Of a stretch of 64,000 nucleotides of DNA, positions 1 to 6,131 are shown piece after piece. The DNA is taken from the NCBI RefSeq assembly GCF_008705135.1, contig NZ_CP023694.1, positions 5,065,001 to 5,129,000 of the forward strand, given 5' to 3'. Source of the stretch: Streptomyces coeruleorubidus. GTDB lineage: Bacteria > Actinomycetota > Actinomycetes > Streptomycetales > Streptomycetaceae. The stretch's first letter is position 1; each line of letters opens with the position of its first letter. The notes under the pieces are model-generated. The model did no database searches and was not told the DNA's origin. It saw only the letters and a list, made by a program, of their open reading frames with translations. The translations under genes and the position numbers were made by a program.

Positions 1-180
1 CTGGGGATAAGCGTGCGGACGTGCCGGGCGCACATCGCCCGGCTGTCGGAGACGCTGGGGGCGGCGAGCCGCACGCAGTTGGGTGTGCGGATCGCCCAGG
101 TGGGCCTGGACGGTCCCCCGCGGCCGGCTGCCTCCCCTACCCTCAGCGTTCCTGGTCAAGAATCCCGGACTGCCCGATGA
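1..180 (+). CDS. LuxR-type HTH regulator, C-terminal fragment
   Basis: The frame is open from the window edge to a TGA at 178-180, so only the last 59 codons are present. The segment contains the recognition-helix part of a LuxR/NarL-type HTH (residues VRTCRAHIARL), almost the same as the matching part of the two minus-strand regulators that follow. A different tail of about 25 residues follows the HTH. The gene runs convergently into its paralogue and the two coding ends overlap by 38 bp. By homology it should bind DNA as the third member of this regulator cluster; the sensing part lies outside the window. Confidence 0.75.
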   Translation: MGISVRTCRAHIARLSETLGAASRTQLGVRIAQVGLDGPPRPAASPTLSVPGQESRTAR

Positions 181-1132
181 GGTAGCCCAGTTGGGCCCTG
201 CTCCGGCTGCCCAGCGTCGCGGCGAGCTTGGCGATGTGGACGCGGGCCGTGCGGATGTTCATGCCGAGCCGGTCGGCGATGACGGCGTCGGTGTGGCCTT
301 CGGTGAGGAGGGCGGCTATGGCGCGTTGGCGGGGCGTGATGCCGTTGTGGGAGGGCTGAGGGGCGGCTTCGGGGAATACCGGGGTGGCAAGGCGCCAGAA
401 GCGGTCGAAGGTGGTGGACAGGTATCCGACGATGGCCGGGTGGCGTATCTCCAGCGCGAGGTCGCCGTTGCCGTCGGCGGGGAGGAAGGCGACGACCCGG
501 TCGACGATGATGAGCCGGTCGGTGAGCTCGTCCAGGGCGCGCGCCTCGATGTCGCCCCTCAGCCGTTCCTGGTGCGCGACGGTCAAGGGGGAGTGGCGGA
601 GGGTGTGCTGGTAGAGGGTGCGGATGCGGCCGCCGCGGTCCAGCAGAGCCTGGTCGCGGTCCGTGGCGACGGCATAGGCCGCCTCGACCCGTTGCCTGGT
701 GAGCTTGGTGCGCGGCTGGATGGTGAGCAGCTCCAGGGAGGCGTCCGCCATGGCCTCGGTGATGGCCTTGTTGATCCGCTCCTTCCCGTTGAGGAGCGTG
801 AGCGTCGGTGTGGTGGCCGCAGCCGCGCGATGCCCTTCGAGAGCCATGAGCGGCTCGAATGTCTCGGCCAGCCGTTCCTCCCGCCGTCGTTCGCGCGCGA
901 TCCGTTCCCCGGAGGTCCGCAGCAGCCGGTGGAGAGCGACGGCCGGCGCCACGGGCTCGAGCCGGTCGAGGTCGTCGACGGCGGGGTGCAGCAAACCGAA
1001 GTCCGTCAGGCAGGGCGCGGCGGGGACCGCGTCGGCGGGTACGTGCCCTTCGCGCAGGGCCCGTTCGTACAGCTCCGTCCTGGCACGGCACAGTTCTTCC
1101 GCGTCGTGCATGGGGTGTGGCGCCGACGTCAC
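143..1132 (-). CDS. LuxR-HTH regulator with PLD-like (TrmB-type) middle domain
   Basis: A 329-residue protein with three parts: an N-terminal region with the APCL...GLL hallmark of a large streptomycete regulator family, a middle region (about 100-250) of the type annotated as TrmB/phospholipase-D-like sensor, and a C-terminal LuxR HTH (about 270-325, GMNIRTARVHIAKL). I chose the GTG at 1132 because a GAGGAGG ribosome site lies 8 nt upstream, inside the 17-bp gap behind the upstream paralogue; the ATG at 1111 is the alternative. It is co-transcribed with the next regulator and about half identical to it by eye. It probably controls the adjacent peptide unit, but no ligand is known. Confidence 0.85.
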   Translation of the reverse strand: MTSAPHPMHDAEELCRARTELYERALREGHVPADAVPAAPCLTDFGLLHPAVDDLDRLEPVAPAVALHRLLRTSGERIARERRREERLAETFEPLMALEGHRAAAATTPTLTLLNGKERINKAITEAMADASLELLTIQPRTKLTRQRVEAAYAVATDRDQALLDRGGRIRTLYQHTLRHSPLTVAHQERLRGDIEARALDELTDRLIIVDRVVAFLPADGNGDLALEIRHPAIVGYLSTTFDRFWRLATPVFPEAAPQPSHNGITPRQRAIAALLTEGHTDAVIADRLGMNIRTARVHIAKLAATLGSRSRAQLGYLIGQSGILDQER

Positions 1133-1149
1133 TCGGGACTTCCTCCTCT

Positions 1150-2094
1150 TCAGTGGTCCTGCTGCAGGATCCCCGACTGCGCTATGAGGTATCCGAGTTG
1201 GGCTCGGCTGCCACTGCCCAGGGCCGACGCCAGCTTGGCGATGTGAGCACGGCAGGTGCGGACGTTCATGCCGAGGCGGCGTGCGATGGCCTCGTCGACG
1301 TGGCCCTCGACCAGAAGCTTGGCTATGGAGTGCTGGACGTCCGTGATACCGCCGGTGGCCGCTTCGTACGGCGTGCCGGTGCTCAGTGGGACCGCGCGGT
1401 CCCAGAGGTATTCGAAAAGCTTGATCAGGTAGCGGACCAGGCCGGGGTGGCGCAGTTCCAGGGCGACCTGCTGGTCGTCCCGGGCGGGGATGAAGGCGAC
1501 GGTTTGGTCGCAGATGATCAAACGTTCCACCAGCTCGTCTATGGTGCGGTACTCCGCCTTGCCGTCGGAGAGCCTGGCCGCGTAGGCCAGTTGCTCCGGG
1601 TTGTAACGGGCGGTGTGCTGGTACACCGTACGGATTCGCACGCCCCGTTCGATGAGTGGCTTGTCGCGTTCCAGCCCTCTCAGGAGGCTGCGTTCGGACA
1701 TGCGGTCGCTCGGCTGGAGGGTGAGGACCTCGGTCCGGCACTGGACTGTGGCCATGTTGAGTGCGGCGTTGATACGTTCACCACCTTCCAGCACGGTGAT
1801 GGAGTCACTTACCGTTGCGATCTGGGTGCCCAGGGCCATGAACGGCTGAAAGGTCTCCGCGAGGTCGACGGCCAGGCGCCTGCGCTCGGCGATCTCGTGT
1901 TCCAGGGGGTTGAGTTGCCGGGAAAGGGCGACGACCGGGGCCACGGGGCGCAGCCAGTCGGGATCGTCCGGATCGGGGTGGAGCAGGGCGAACTCCATCA
2001 GGCAGGGGGCCGGTTCCACGTCTGCGCGTGCGATGCGTCCGGTGCGCAGAGCGGTGGCGTACAAGCGTCCGCCCTCCTCGCACCACTCGGTCAT
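1150..2094 (-). CDS. LuxR-HTH regulator with PLD-like (TrmB-type) middle domain
   Basis: A 314-residue paralogue of the downstream regulator with the same architecture: the N-terminal APCL...ALLHPDPDDP segment, a middle sensor-like region containing the IRTVYQHTARY and DELVERLIICDQ motifs shared with its neighbour, and a C-terminal LuxR HTH with GMNVRTCRAHIAKL. The ATG at 2094 aligns with the neighbour, but its SD (AAAGGGA, about 12 nt away) is poorly placed, so a start up to 2139 (TTG, leaderless or after GGGTGGAG) is possible. It is transcribed divergently from the peptide gene at 2247 and heads the regulator pair. The tandem arrangement suggests duplication and divergence on related signals. 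Confidence 0.83.
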   Translation of the reverse strand: MTEWCEEGGRLYATALRTGRIARADVEPAPCLMEFALLHPDPDDPDWLRPVAPVVALSRQLNPLEHEIAERRRLAVDLAETFQPFMALGTQIATVSDSITVLEGGERINAALNMATVQCRTEVLTLQPSDRMSERSLLRGLERDKPLIERGVRIRTVYQHTARYNPEQLAYAARLSDGKAEYRTIDELVERLIICDQTVAFIPARDDQQVALELRHPGLVRYLIKLFEYLWDRAVPLSTGTPYEAATGGITDVQHSIAKLLVEGHVDEAIARRLGMNVRTCRAHIAKLASALGSGSRAQLGYLIAQSGILQQDH

Positions 2095-2246
2095 CGCATG
2101 GGGATGTGTCCCTTTTGCTCGATCTGTGGTCAAATCTCCACCCCCCAGGGTCCTGAACATGCAGGAACATGATGCATCGATTGTGTGGCCATGACGTGCC
2201 CGAATGAGCCATCGTCGTACTCGACGGGGGAAAAGGGGACCTTCAA
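2095..2246. promoter_or_regulatory. Divergent control region of regulators and peptide unit
   Basis: This 152-bp region separates the regulator pair (minus) from the peptide gene (plus). It contains GAACATG twice as a direct repeat exactly 10 bp apart (2155-2161 and 2165-2171) and the palindrome GATGCATC (2171-2178). Their helical phasing and divergent position make them reasonable candidate sites for the LuxR proteins. The AAAAGGGG element before 2247 is the peptide gene ribosome site. Confidence 0.4.
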
Positions 2247-2459
2247 GTGAGGACGAAGCCGACTATGCGGAACAGAATGCTTCGCTCGGTGCTTGTCGCC
2301 GCCTTCTCCGTCGTTGTAACCCTCGGCGCGCTGAGTGGCTTCTCCGATGAGAAGGGCGATGTTCGGGCGAACACCAGTTGGCCGGCGGTGGCTCAGACCA
2401 GCTACGGCGTGAACAACACCAGCTGGCCGAGTTCCGCGACAGCGGGATCCGGGAGCTGA
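2247..2459 (+). CDS. Small exported peptide with two NTSWP motifs
   Basis: A 70-residue product with an Arg/Lys-rich start, a hydrophobic segment at about residues 15-31 and a short polar tail, the pattern of a Sec signal or a single N-terminal membrane anchor. The exported part repeats NTSWP at 42-46 and 57-61, with Gln-Thr-Ser-Tyr between, and ends in Ser/Gly/Ala residues. There are no cysteines. The GTG start has AAAGGGG about 8 nt upstream. The next gene starts 2 nt after the stop, so the two are translationally coupled. I do not recognise a characterised family. Its position beside paralogous regulators suggests a signal or matured peptide, which is an inference. Confidence 0.65.
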   Translation: MRTKPTMRNRMLRSVLVAAFSVVVTLGALSGFSDEKGDVRANTSWPAVAQTSYGVNNTSWPSSATAGSGS

Positions 2460-2461
2460 CC

Positions 2462-2797
2462 GTGACCACTCCACCCGACGACCGCTCCTTCCGCCGCGAA
2501 ATGGCCACCGCCTACCGCTCCGGCTGGCACTTCATCGACCTGGTCACCGCCATCCCCCACAGCGGCGACTCGTTGATGGTGACTGTTTTCGGCGAGCCGG
2601 TGGTCGTCACGCGGGACGAGGACGAGGACGTACGGGCTTACCGGTGTCTGCGGCGGCCTCGGGGGGCGCCGCAGCCCGTGCGGTGTGCCGTACGGTACGG
2701 AATGATCTTTGTGAACCTGGACCAAAGGGACCACGAGCAGGTGGAGGCCGACTCTCCTGCCCCGAGGACCATCTCTGCCACCCCCCGCAGTGCCTGA
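2462..2797 (+). CDS. Short Rieske-like protein lacking the His ligands
   Basis: A 111-residue product starting with a GTG 2 nt after the peptide gene; CGGGAG lies 8 nt upstream. Residues 18-60 (GWHFIDL, IPHSGD, FGEPVVVTRDEDEDVRAY) match the entry strands of Rieske domains of ring-hydroxylating oxygenases, and YGMIFVNLD (79-87) matches the strand after the cluster. Where C-x-H and C-x2-H should stand, it has C62-x-R64 and C75-x2-R78 with a short 10-residue interval. It therefore probably cannot bind a normal [2Fe-2S] Rieske cluster. It also lacks a catalytic iron domain. It may be a binding or maturation partner of the peptide; a decaying pseudogene is the alternative. Confidence 0.6.
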   Translation: MTTPPDDRSFRREMATAYRSGWHFIDLVTAIPHSGDSLMVTVFGEPVVVTRDEDEDVRAYRCLRRPRGAPQPVRCAVRYGMIFVNLDQRDHEQVEADSPAPRTISATPRSA

Positions 2798-2840
2798 CGC
2801 GATTCCCCCGTCGTAACAGATCGCTCAGGTGCTTCCCCCC

Positions 2841-2881
2841 GCAGCGGCGTCACCGTGACCTGAACACGGTGACGCCGCTGC
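2841..2881 (+). terminator. Strong hairpin terminator of the peptide unit
   Basis: A perfect 17-bp stem (2841-2857 with 2865-2881) closes a 7-nt loop 43 bp behind the Rieske-like gene and is followed by a short T-rich stretch. It also faces the end of the convergent PPOX gene and could serve both strands. Confidence 0.85.
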
Positions 2882-2988: not shown

Positions 2989-3405
2989 TCAACCCCGCCC
3001 CATCGCTCGGGTCAGCTCGATCTCGATCACCACGCGTGCGGGATTCGGCGAGGGGGTCCGTCCGTAGCGCTCGGCGTAGCGGCGTACCGCCTCCGCGACC
3101 CGGTCCGGCTCGGTGCGGACGAAGGCCCGGCCCTCCAGTGTCGCCCAGCGCCGGCCCTCCATCTGGCAGACGGCGACCGCCGCCCCCTGTTCCCCCGCGG
3201 CCAGCACGTGCCGCGCCTTGGCGCTCGCCTTGTTGGTGATTACCCGAGCGAGCCGGGCCGCGGGATCGTATGTGACCCCGACGGGTACCACGTGCGGAGT
3301 GCCGTCCGGGCGGGGAGTCGTCAGGGTGCACACGTGCCGTTCCCGCCAGAAGCTGAGGTACGGCTCGTCCGGAGCGCCGGGATCGACGGAGTACTTGGTC
3401 GCCAT
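2989..3405 (-). CDS. PPOX-family (F420/FMN-dependent) oxidoreductase
   Basis: A 138-residue single-domain protein of the pyridoxamine-phosphate-oxidase-like split-barrel family. The opening FWRERHVCTLTTPRPDGTPHVVPVG is the family signature, followed by a strand with cofactor contacts around ITNKASAKARHV and a C-terminal helix-strand ending in VVIEIEL. Members of this actinobacterial branch use deazaflavin F420 or FMN to reduce unsaturated substrates; the natural substrate here is unknown. The gene is divergent from clpB, sharing a 104-bp control region with the HAIR operator, so HspR could also influence it. Confidence 0.85.
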   Translation of the reverse strand: MATKYSVDPGAPDEPYLSFWRERHVCTLTTPRPDGTPHVVPVGVTYDPAARLARVITNKASAKARHVLAAGEQGAAVAVCQMEGRRWATLEGRAFVRTEPDRVAEAVRRYAERYGRTPSPNPARVVIEIELTRAMGRG

Positions 3406-3509: not shown

Positions 3510-6131
3510 GTGGACGCCGAGCTGACCAACCGGAGCCGGGACGCGATCAACGCGGCCAGCAACATGGCCGTCACGGAGGGGCACCCTGACCTCACCCCCG
3601 CCCATCTGCTTCTCGCGCTGCTCCAGGGACAGGACAACGAGAACATCACCGATCTGCTCGCCGCGGTCGACGCCGACCAGGCGGCCGTGCGCGCCGGAGC
3701 CGAGCGGGTGCTCGCCGGGCTGCCCAGTGTGACCGGATCCACCGTGGCGCCGCCCCAGCCCAACCGCGAGATGCTCGCCGTCGTCGCCGACGCGCAGGCC
3801 CGCGCCAAGGACCTGGGGGACGAGTACCTCTCCACGGAGCACCTCCTCATCGGCATCGCCGCGAAGGGCGGCGCGGCCGGCGAGGTGCTGTCCCAGCAGG
3901 GCGCCGACGCCAGGAAGCTCCAGGACGCCTTCCAGAAGACGCGGGGAGCGCGCCGGGTGACCACGGCCGACCCCGAGGGCCAGTACAAGGCCCTGGAGAA
4001 GTTCGGGACGGACTTCACCGCCGCCGCGCGGGAAGGGAAGCTCGATCCCGTCATCGGGCGGGACCAGGAGATCCGGCGCGTGGTGCAGGTGCTGTCCCGC
4101 CGTACGAAGAACAACCCCGTGCTCATCGGTGAGCCCGGGGTCGGCAAGACCGCCGTCGTCGAAGGGCTCGCCCAGCGGATCGTCAAGGGGGACGTGCCGG
4201 AGTCCCTGAAGGACAAGCGGCTCGTCGCGCTCGATCTGGGGGCCATGGTCGCCGGGGCCAAGTACCGGGGCGAGTTCGAGGAGCGGCTGAAGACCGTCCT
4301 CGCCGAGATCAAGGACTCCGACGGGCAGATCATCACCTTCATCGACGAGCTGCACACCGTCGTGGGGGCCGGTGCCGGCGGCGACTCCGCCATGGACGCC
4401 GGGAACATGCTGAAGCCCATGCTCGCGCGCGGTGAGCTGCGCATGGTGGGTGCCACGACCCTCGACGAGTACCGCGAGCGGATCGAGAAGGACGCGGCCC
4501 TGGAGCGGCGCTTCCAGCAGGTGCTGGTCGCCGAGCCGAGCGTCGAGGACTCCATCGCGATCCTGCGCGGCCTCAAGGGCCGCTACGAGGCCCACCACAA
4601 GGTGCAGATCGCCGACAGCGCGCTGGTCGCCGCCGCCGCCCTCTCCGACCGGTACATCACCTCCCGCTTCCTGCCCGACAAGGCCATCGACCTCGTCGAC
4701 GAGGCGGCCTCGCGGCTGCGGATGGAGATCGACTCGTCCCCTGTCGAGATCGACGAGCTCCAGCGCGCCGTCGACCGGCTGAAGATGGAGGAGCTGGCGA
4801 TCGGCAAGGAGACCGACGCGGCCTCCCGCGAGCGTCTGGAGAAGCTGCGCCGCGACCTCGCCGACAAGGAGGAGGAGCTGCGCGGCCTCACCGCCCGCTG
4901 GGAGAAGGAGAAGCAGTCCCTCAACCGCGTCGGTGAGCTGAAGGAACGCCTCGACGAACTGCGCGGCCAGGCCGAGCGCGCCCAGCGCGACGGCGACTTC
5001 GACACCGCCTCCAAGCTGCTCTACGGCGAGATCCCCGCCCTGGAGAAGGAGCTGGAGGCCGCCTCCGAGGCCGAGGAGGCGTTGACATCTTCCGCCTCCG
5101 GCGGGGGCTCCAAGGACACCATGGTCAAGGAGGAGGTCGGCGCCGACGACATCGCCGACGTCGTCGCCTCCTGGACCGGGATCCCCGCCGGGCGGCTGCT
5201 GGAGGGCGAGACGCAGAAGCTGCTGCGCATGGAGGACGAGCTGGGCAAGCGGCTCATCGGCCAGACGGAGGCCGTGCGGGCGGTCAGCGATGCCGTACGG
5301 CGGTCCCGCGCCGGAATCTCCGACCCCGACCGCCCCACCGGCTCCTTCCTCTTCCTCGGGCCGACCGGTGTCGGCAAGACGGAACTGGCCAAGGCCCTCG
5401 CCGACTTCCTCTTCGACGACGAGCGGGCGATGGTCCGCATCGACATGTCGGAGTACAGCGAGAAGCACAGCGTGGCCCGGCTGGTCGGTGCCCCGCCCGG
5501 ATACGTCGGTTACGAGGAAGGCGGCCAGCTCACGGAGGCGGTGCGCCGCCGTCCGTACTCCGTCGTCCTGCTGGACGAGGTGGAGAAGGCCCACCCCGAG
5601 GTCTTCGACATCCTGCTCCAGGTGCTCGACGACGGGCGTCTCACGGACGGGCAGGGCCGCACGGTCGACTTCCGCAACACCATCCTCGTGCTGACGTCGA
5701 ACCTGGGCAGCCAGTTCCTGGTCGACCCGCTCACCAGTGAGGCGGAGAAGAAGGAACAGGTCCTGGAGGTGGTGCGGACCTCCTTCAAGCCGGAGTTCCT
5801 CAACCGCCTGGACGACCTGGTCGTCTTCGCCGCCCTGACCAAGCCCGAGCTGGAGCGCATCGCCAAGCTCCAGATCGAGCGCCTGGCCAAGCGCCTCGCC
5901 GAGCGGCGCCTCGCCCTGGACGTCGCGCCCGAGGCCCTGGCCTGGCTCGCGGAGGAGGGCATGGACCCGGCGTACGGCGCCCGCCCGCTGCGCCGCCTCG
6001 TCCAGACAGCCATCGGCGACCGCCTCGCCAAGGAGATCCTCTCCGGCGAGATCAAGGACGGCGACACGGTCCGCGTCGACCGCATCGGCGACGAACTGCT
6101 GGTGGGACCGGCTACGGGCAAGACGCTGTAG
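3510..6131 (+). CDS. clpB: ATP-dependent disaggregase ClpB
   Basis: An 873-residue Hsp100 protein of normal ClpB length. It has an N-terminal repeat domain (1-145), first AAA+ module with Walker A GEPGVGKT at about 207 and Walker B FIDELH, the coiled-coil middle domain (about 400-530) that separates ClpB from ClpA/C, and a second AAA+ module with GPTGVGKT at about 617 and a C-terminal D2 small domain. It threads aggregated proteins through its hexameric pore and works with DnaK/DnaJ/GrpE. The GTG start follows AAGGAGG at a good distance. The HAIR element upstream indicates HspR repression and heat-shock induction. Confidence 0.98.

Follow-up and report, generated by a model that had tools for sequence, protein, structure and literature searches.

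Background

Among described systems, the closest to the locus considered here are the RRNPP quorum-sensing systems of Bacillota (Rgg/SHP, PlcR/PapR, PrgX, AimR), whose receptors carry TPR repeats, and the alpha-factor-type precursors of yeast, in which several identical pheromone copies lie between divergent spacers. Signalling in Streptomyces is usually told through gamma-butyrolactones. The locus lies within a 64,000-nucleotide stretch of Streptomyces coeruleorubidus DNA (NZ_CP023694.1, positions 5,065,001 to 5,129,000; hereafter the window), part of a 9.34-Mb single-contig chromosome. A gene for a 70-amino-acid (aa) export-type peptide stands there divergent from a regulator gene, regA, and we consider it probable that the locus is a multi-copy peptide-pheromone unit, with regA encoding the cognate receptor, that is swapped between lineages as a 'pherotype' cassette. 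A first-pass annotation had proposed signalling from the colocalisation of paralogous regulators with an exported peptide; that core idea survives, and signalling is much the best reading of two sequence comparisons, the identity of repeated motif copies within each precursor and the co-variation of regA with that motif.

As in RRNPP systems, a gene for an exported short-peptide precursor stands beside one for a cytoplasmic DNA-binding regulator (here in 188/188 cases, export being judged from sequence), and ligand and receptor diversify together. Unlike them, the predicted receptor joins a TrmB/PLD-like sensor to a LuxR-type helix-turn-helix (HTH) in place of TPR repeats, the precursor often holds several identical copies, the core is of DxxW type and the hosts are Actinomycetes; we do not file the system as RRNPP, though by analogy it would work like one. 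Identical copies with divergent spacers recall the yeast precursors, from which this system differs in being bacterial, in its putative intracellular transcription-factor receptor and in having no fixed spacer protease signature by eye. The BldK-imported signal of S. coelicolor is likewise an imported oligopeptide that steers antibiotics and development, but is reported to act through the bald cascade, and nothing here equates the two peptides (PMC11303876). A review of Streptomyces signalling deals with gamma-butyrolactones (PMC4748050). The kinds of proposed receptor and precursor described below are new inside the general class of exported peptides read by cytoplasmic regulators; we found no earlier description of an NTSWP-type peptide/regA system in the PMC literature, a scope that leaves out preprints and most subscription papers.

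A conserved precursor with a repeated tetrapeptide

The proposed pheromone precursor of the window (2247..2459, forward strand, GTG start) has a basic N-terminus, a hydrophobic export segment and a variable tail, which fits the earlier prediction of an exported peptide and adds to it that NTSWP is present twice (2370..2384 and 2415..2429, forward strand). For comparison we gathered 190 homologous loci, not as a random sample: the 30 best matches to the Rieske-like protein encoded just downstream of the peptide, 22 of 30 further loci (the other 8 were oxygenase matches and left out), the 80 named genomes nearest to the window's Rieske-like protein (91-99% identity), out of more than 500 relatives, and 58 chosen regions. 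Precursors were taken by a small open reading frame (ORF) picker that asks for a basic start and a hydrophobic segment upstream of the Rieske-like gene and is blind to the motif; it yielded 187, and a further one (L212, seven copies, over the filter length) was included manually once its frame had been inspected. Because some genomes are present twice among the loci, the 163 distinct precursors are a fair unit of counting.

An export-type precursor occupies the homologous position in 188/190 loci, so that on a check set beforehand the peptide frame is conserved as protein, and a divergent regA lies within 700 bp of it in all 188 peptide-bearing loci. The sole exceptions, L158 and L159, are Rieske-like second copies with neither regA nor peptide, so that no peptide occurs without the regulator in this sample; these copies (at about 4312 and 4494, respectively) lie 93-213 kb from the contig start in two genomes. 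A search with a composite peptide recovered homologues in 203/295 Streptomyces genomes, by eye one each except for two genomes with two, and the 40 best matches all stand directly upstream of a Rieske-like gene.

The motif [DEN][STPLIVF]xW, defined after the first sequences were inspected, is found in the tail of 188/188 precursors in 1-7 copies each, and 370 of the 377 tail tryptophans of the distinct precursors fall inside it. Copy number is one in 52 distinct precursors, two in 54, three in 35, four in 12, five in 6, six in 1 and seven in 3; examples are DVGW x7 (L189), DSGW x7 (L212), DSTW x6 (L138) and EPTW x5 (L177). There are 37 different tetrapeptides overall, yet the copies are all alike in 105 of the 111 distinct multi-copy precursors. 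Identity between copies at positions 1, 2 and 3 is 100, 100 and 96.7% (369 pairs), compared with 74.6, 38.1 and 21.5% in 1000 shuffles. At the DNA level, codons at these positions agree in 68.7% of cases within precursors (357 identical-copy pairs) and in 67.7% between precursors with the same tetrapeptide, and spacer residues are alike in 27% (653/2413). Because codons differ within precursors as much as between them, the copies appear to be kept identical by selection on the protein, and these comparisons indicate copies that are mostly old as DNA. Recent tandem duplication as the source of identical copies is ruled out by the same codon and spacer comparison, with the limit that 109/357 identical-copy pairs share all nine bases.

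Co-variation of regA with the motif

Co-variation was measured across 101 loci, which remained after duplicates were removed from the 112 in which regA is present and ClpB aligns over more than 250 residues. At equal ClpB distance, loci further apart in motif are also further apart in regA (partial Mantel r 0.574, n=101, p 0.001). Among pairs with ClpB distance below 0.04, mean regA distance is 0.053 when the motif is the same (76 pairs) and 0.171, 0.213 and 0.253 at one, two and three motif differences (124, 140 and 41 pairs). Neither of the other two regulators of the window locus co-varies significantly with the motif in this test (regB, r 0.092, p 0.145, n=51; regC, r 0.019, p 0.40, n=68), so that neither is supported as a partner of the NTSWP peptide.

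Differences at fourfold-degenerate sites over the whole regA gene are about 0.18-0.26 between loci with the same motif and 0.40-0.53 between loci with different motifs, compared with 0.08-0.16 and 0.08-0.19 for the Rieske-like gene, a pattern indicating that regA as a whole is replaced together with the peptide gene. Amino-acid change has a pattern of its own on top of this replacement. The ratio of amino-acid to fourfold differences, worked out from per-segment difference figures, rises from same to different motif from 0.22 to 0.73 at residues 121-140, from 0.14 to 0.74 at 161-180 and from 0.42 to 0.82 at 61-100, compared with a rise of only 0.18 to 0.23 in the HTH (251-314). Motif-linked columns peak in the same three segments, which lie in the long helix and in loops and helices of the predicted sensor; by this comparison, motif-linked amino-acid change is concentrated in the PLD-like sensor of RegA.

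Predicted architecture of RegA

The gene occupies 1150..2094 on the reverse strand, in an open frame that reaches 2160, and its assignment as the proposed cognate receptor draws on fold matches as well as motif co-variation. In the predicted model (mean predicted local distance difference test score 83.3, predicted template modelling score 0.55), RegA consists of a TrmB/PLD-like sensor (1-240) and a LuxR-type HTH (246-312). Residues 1-238 align with archaeal TrmBL2 (Foldseek E 8e-14, Z 16.9; root-mean-square deviation 7-19, the parts being mutually rotated), a possible sign of the N-terminal winged HTH and coiled coil that precede the effector domain in TrmB-family regulators. The sugar-binding domain of TrmB (2f5t) matches the sensor at Z 14.8 (root-mean-square deviation 2.6 over 129 residues), many PLD-fold chains match residues ~96-240, and residues 246-312 match LuxR-type HTHs at Z about 11. 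RegA differs from TrmB and TrmBL2 in its extra C-terminal LuxR-type HTH and in its proposed ligand, a peptide and not a sugar. Profile searches see little of this: at E 1, Pfam returned no TrmB match for RegA and no TPR family for RegA or RegB, GerE scored 25.9 bits for RegB (cut-off 23.5) and 16.8, below cut-off, for RegA, and NCBIfam gave only weak HTH matches far under cut-offs for both.

Recurrence beyond the locus

Relatives of RegA at E 1e-20 are present in 64/296 Actinomycete genomes and 13/114 genera, Streptomyces included. From a longer list of relatives we took 47 loci of distant regulators and dropped two duplicates, leaving 45, of which 12 are from Streptomyces. An export-type motif ORF lies near 19 of these 45 (5/12 in Streptomyces, 14/33 in other genera). 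Among controls, such an ORF turned up in 2 of 146 pieces of 2.7 kb, all from the clpB region downstream of the Streptomyces loci, and in 2 of the 22 pieces into which the window was cut (3 motif ORFs in total in 61 kb of the window). The regulator loci are somewhat longer outside the regulator (~3.2 kb mean) than the control pieces, which explains a small part of the excess only; an earlier scan of the upstream side alone had found fewer motif ORFs near the distant regulators, and the reversed motif is absent both around the 45 regulators and from the 146 control pieces. By eye, the motif follows directly after an AxA signal-peptidase-like site in 5 of the 14 cases outside Streptomyces, as in ...AHA-DTSWG (L238, L242), ...AEA-DSSWG (L243) and ...AQA-DTAWE (L254), and stands one or two residues behind such a site in 6 more.

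The window's own genome holds a second pair, in which a 330-aa, more distant regulator (C1:5222120; L156:5112-6104) is divergent from a 70-aa export-type peptide (L156:6273-6485) with DLPWT x2. This pair stands beside a large 1035-aa regulator that we take, from its domain pattern, to be AfsR-like. Small export-type ORFs with tryptophan motifs just outside the definition (ATSWG, STIWG, DGAGWQ x2, DGIIWD and a terminal DDDW) also occur near five distant regulators (L247, L251, L255, L259, L277), and were left out of the 19/45.

Proposed mechanism and alternative explanations

Under a pheromone reading, the precursor would leave the cell by the general secretory (Sec) route, and extracellular proteases would release short peptides with the repeated core (here N-T-S-W, probably NTSWP), several copies per precursor multiplying the yield. 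The mature peptide would then re-enter the cytoplasm, most likely via an oligopeptide permease, and bind the TrmB/PLD-like sensor of RegA, altering the activity of its LuxR-type DNA-binding domain. RegA would act at the shared intergenic region between regA and the peptide gene and at other targets, probably including antibiotic control, and joint replacement of peptide and regA between lineages would generate species-specific 'passwords'. What the sequences establish is an export-type precursor, the identity of its repeats, its linkage to and co-variation with regA, faster amino-acid change in the sensor and recurrence near distant relatives of the regulator. Cleavage, import, binding, direction of control and targets are proposed because RegA looks cytoplasmic and because of the RRNPP precedent.

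Several observations weigh against a pheromone. The motif is present only once in 52 of the 163 distinct precursors, and six multi-copy precursors have unlike copies, always at position 3. We noticed no importer or protease in the unit, and the support for a signal comes from sequence and model comparison. No peptide was recognised at 26 of the 45 distant regulator loci, and a few of the 19 positive ones may be chance, because some control pieces (2/22 of those from the window) hold a motif ORF. In the co-variation test, the Rieske-like gene also follows the motif (protein r 0.146, p 0.001; DNA r 0.117, p 0.006), as does the PPOX-type gene beyond it (r 0.090, p 0.019, n=85); the amino-acid to fourfold ratio of regA climbs outside the three sensor segments too, although less, most at 221-250 (0.19 to 0.50); and because fourfold sites across all of regA diverge with the motif, block replacement of linked DNA accounts for some of the co-variation. 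It could be supposed from the last point that linkage is all there is, that the peptide is an exported factor of another kind, with a surface, spore or regulatory role, and that regA just controls its gene, and fourfold divergence along the whole of regA is indeed about doubled between loci of unlike motif. We nevertheless think this unlikely: the equally close Rieske-like gene hardly tracks the motif, amino-acid change in the sensor segments rises far above that in the HTH at similar fourfold divergence, the copies are identical despite unrelated codons and spacers, and the same pairing is found with distant regulators in other gene settings.

A small, exported product with a fast-evolving tail and a coupled second gene would also suit an antimicrobial peptide, a bacteriocin-like ribosomally synthesised and post-translationally modified peptide in which the tail is the toxin, the Rieske-like protein provides immunity or tailoring and the regulators control production. 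This is very improbable, since such a partner should follow peptide type and the Rieske-like protein is nearly constant; in the sample, Streptomyces is the one genus where it was found, a search of the proteins encoded from regB through PPOX, which took in no gene beyond regC, turned up neither a transporter nor a modification enzyme, and a tail that repeats one tetrapeptide fits a signal more readily than a toxin. We give similarly little credence to a peptide that acts without returning to the cytoplasm, by membrane-tethered or extracytoplasmic sensing through another receptor, with RegA responding indirectly. Many Streptomyces precursors do lack a clear AxA cleavage site by eye, and no permease is seen beside the peptide, but RegA resembles soluble TrmB, PLD and LuxR-type proteins, its sensor co-varies with the motif, and outside the genus an AxA site is often followed at once, or nearly so, by D[ST]xW (again by eye), which points to a free N-terminal signal.

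A proposed link to antibiotic control in S. coelicolor

The clpB gene of S. coelicolor is SCO3661 (PMC2687793), and a published table gives SCO3665 and SCO3666 as LuxR-family proteins of 327 and 394 aa, with SCO3664 absent from it (PMC3282765). These lengths are near those of RegB and RegC (322 and 397 aa), and by gene count SCO3662 appears to be PPOX, SCO3663 the Rieske-like gene and SCO3664 regA, the peptide being unnumbered, an assignment made from order and length. In a transposon study, actinorhodin increased more than 50-fold on insertion in SCO3664 ('regulator'); the authors built a complementation plasmid for SCO3664, and 12/16 complemented mutants were restored overall, a figure that is not specific to SCO3664 (PMC6585502). 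This increase makes it probable that RegA acts as a brake on antibiotics, and it leads to the hypothesis of a peptide that lifts, or else sets, the brake.

If the pheromone reading is true, a conserved channel of peptide signalling, with species codes that can be read, exists in most sampled Streptomyces genomes and also in other genera, the switching of regA-type regulators is explained, cheap synthetic inducers become available to try on silent antibiotic clusters, and a TrmB/PLD-like receptor joins peptide quorum sensing. A wider picture, which we find attractive without quite leaning towards it, is of a general Actinomycete pheromone language of one to seven D/E/N-x-x-W cores, TrmB/PLD-LuxR readers and dozens of swapped passwords, in which RegA (SCO3664) restrains antibiotics in Streptomyces and the receptor paralogues arrayed alongside, at up to seven regulators per locus, eavesdrop on other species.

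The additional regulators

The first-pass annotation had placed two tandem LuxR-HTH regulators divergent from a coupled peptide and Rieske-like gene pair, with a third paralogue touching the other end, and every part is where it was placed. Next to regA lies regB (143..1111, reverse strand), a LuxR-HTH regulator of the same family (GerE domain E 7.5e-6), on which regC converges with a 38-bp overlap; the ORF of regC enters the window only by its 3' end (1..180, forward strand, stop at 180), the whole gene (L005:8987-10180) lying about 1 kb outside. Identity to RegA is 49% for RegB and 48% for RegC. In the 135 loci with more than 4 kb of upstream sequence, three regulators are present in 63, two in 38, one in 11, four to seven in 21 and none in 2. 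By nearest-neighbour distances, 189/190 non-adjacent regulators are closest to other non-adjacent ones, the exception being the second regulator of L150, and these distances rule out RegB as a receptor copied from a regA of another password type. RegB, RegC and the additional regulators probably serve as receptors of different signals.

The coupled Rieske-like protein

Two bases separate the peptide stop from the GTG start of the 111-aa Rieske-like protein (2462..2797, forward strand), an arrangement of translational coupling. Rieske [2Fe-2S] clusters are held by two cysteines and two histidines. In an alignment of 16 sequences, both expected histidine positions are arginine and neither cysteine is invariant, C62 being absent in L054-L057 and C75 lost in L043; in this sense the description 'ligandless' is apt for the family, and the protein of the window retains both cysteines. 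The matches listed by a structure search (50) are Rieske-type oxygenases and demethylases and one protein without a telling name, the best at E 2.8e-3 and none at 1e-3; the Pfam Rieske family was hit at E 0.017, below cut-off, with the longer frame only, and NCBIfam returned nothing for this protein or for the peptide. Sequence and predicted fold, with these weak scores, suggest the Rieske domain of ring-hydroxylating oxygenases, which the protein appears to resemble in fold and N-terminal sequence and from which it differs in its incomplete cluster ligands and lack of a catalytic domain.

Matches to the Rieske-like gene occur in 255/295 Streptomyces genomes, and 247/295 is nearer the true count because ordinary oxygenases make up 8 of the 12 weakest. 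At E 1e-10, the protein is found in 23/296 Actinomycete genomes and in one of 114 genera, Streptomyces. Its strong conservation and its coupling to the peptide suggest that the protein is probably of importance in Streptomyces; it is probably accessory, and in this sample confined to that genus. A role as maturation enzyme, as had been proposed, fares poorly with incomplete ligands, a protein that hardly tracks peptide type and one genus compared with 13 for the regulator relatives; as a general requirement, peptide maturation by this protein is ruled out by the ligands, the weak tracking and these distributions (1/114 and 13/114 genera). A toxin-immunity pair is rejected as well, since the Rieske-like partner hardly co-varies with the peptide.

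The C-terminus SATPRSA (2774-2794 in the window) is kept though the preceding residues vary, with TPHCA in the most distant forms, and this conserved end could be an interaction or degradation signal. In L054-L057, with divergent Rieske-like forms (47-48% identity), the peptide encoded upstream is short and of another form, with QQDPAWD or QQDPTWG at its end.

Gene order, control region and RNA elements

Away from an ORF at 3510-6131 that we take, from its sequence, to be clpB, a heat-shock gene, the order is a PPOX-type gene (2989-3405, assigned by profile matches), Rieske-like gene, peptide gene, regA, regB and regC. Between regA and the peptide gene, the operator-like palindrome TCCTGAACATGCAGGA (2151..2166, no strand) was recognised by its recurrence: TCCTGN6CAGGA is present in 90/101 regA-peptide intergenic regions at a nearly fixed distance. 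The palindrome is a candidate autoregulatory operator. In the window's genome the exact pattern TCCTGNNCATNCAGGA has a single site, and a genome-wide palindrome regulon is rejected on that single site and on 31 matches with at most one mismatch compared with 30 for the reversed control.

A strong terminator had been predicted after the gene pair. The hairpin at 2841..2881 (forward strand; loop ACCTGAA) has a perfect 17-bp stem and z -5.76 over 2795-2890, and the stem is perfect in 181/190 loci, eight of the other nine having a similar imperfect hairpin and L026 being mis-parsed; being conserved across loci, it is not chance. It has no long T run, and a simple terminator scan did not list it; it is a probable terminator or an RNA element of the 3' untranslated region (UTR), for which no Rfam family came near gathering score. 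The leader CGACGGGGGAA (2222..2232, forward strand) is complementary to the 3' UTR element TTCCCCCGTC (2803..2812, forward strand). In the window this element stands as TTCCCCCGTC(G) downstream of the Rieske-like gene, and the mean longest match between leader and 3' UTR is 9.1 bp in 131 distinct loci, compared with 5.5 bp for shuffled 3' UTRs, and since cross-locus pairs match equally well (9.3 bp) the complementarity is conserved and not locus-specific; long-range pairing or control by a small RNA is possible. The C-rich 3' UTR and hairpin (2795-2881) share the same 37-base core in at least 137/190 loci, many of them close relatives, and other loci have paired changes in the hairpin stem; the hairpin is perhaps more conserved than a plain terminator needs.

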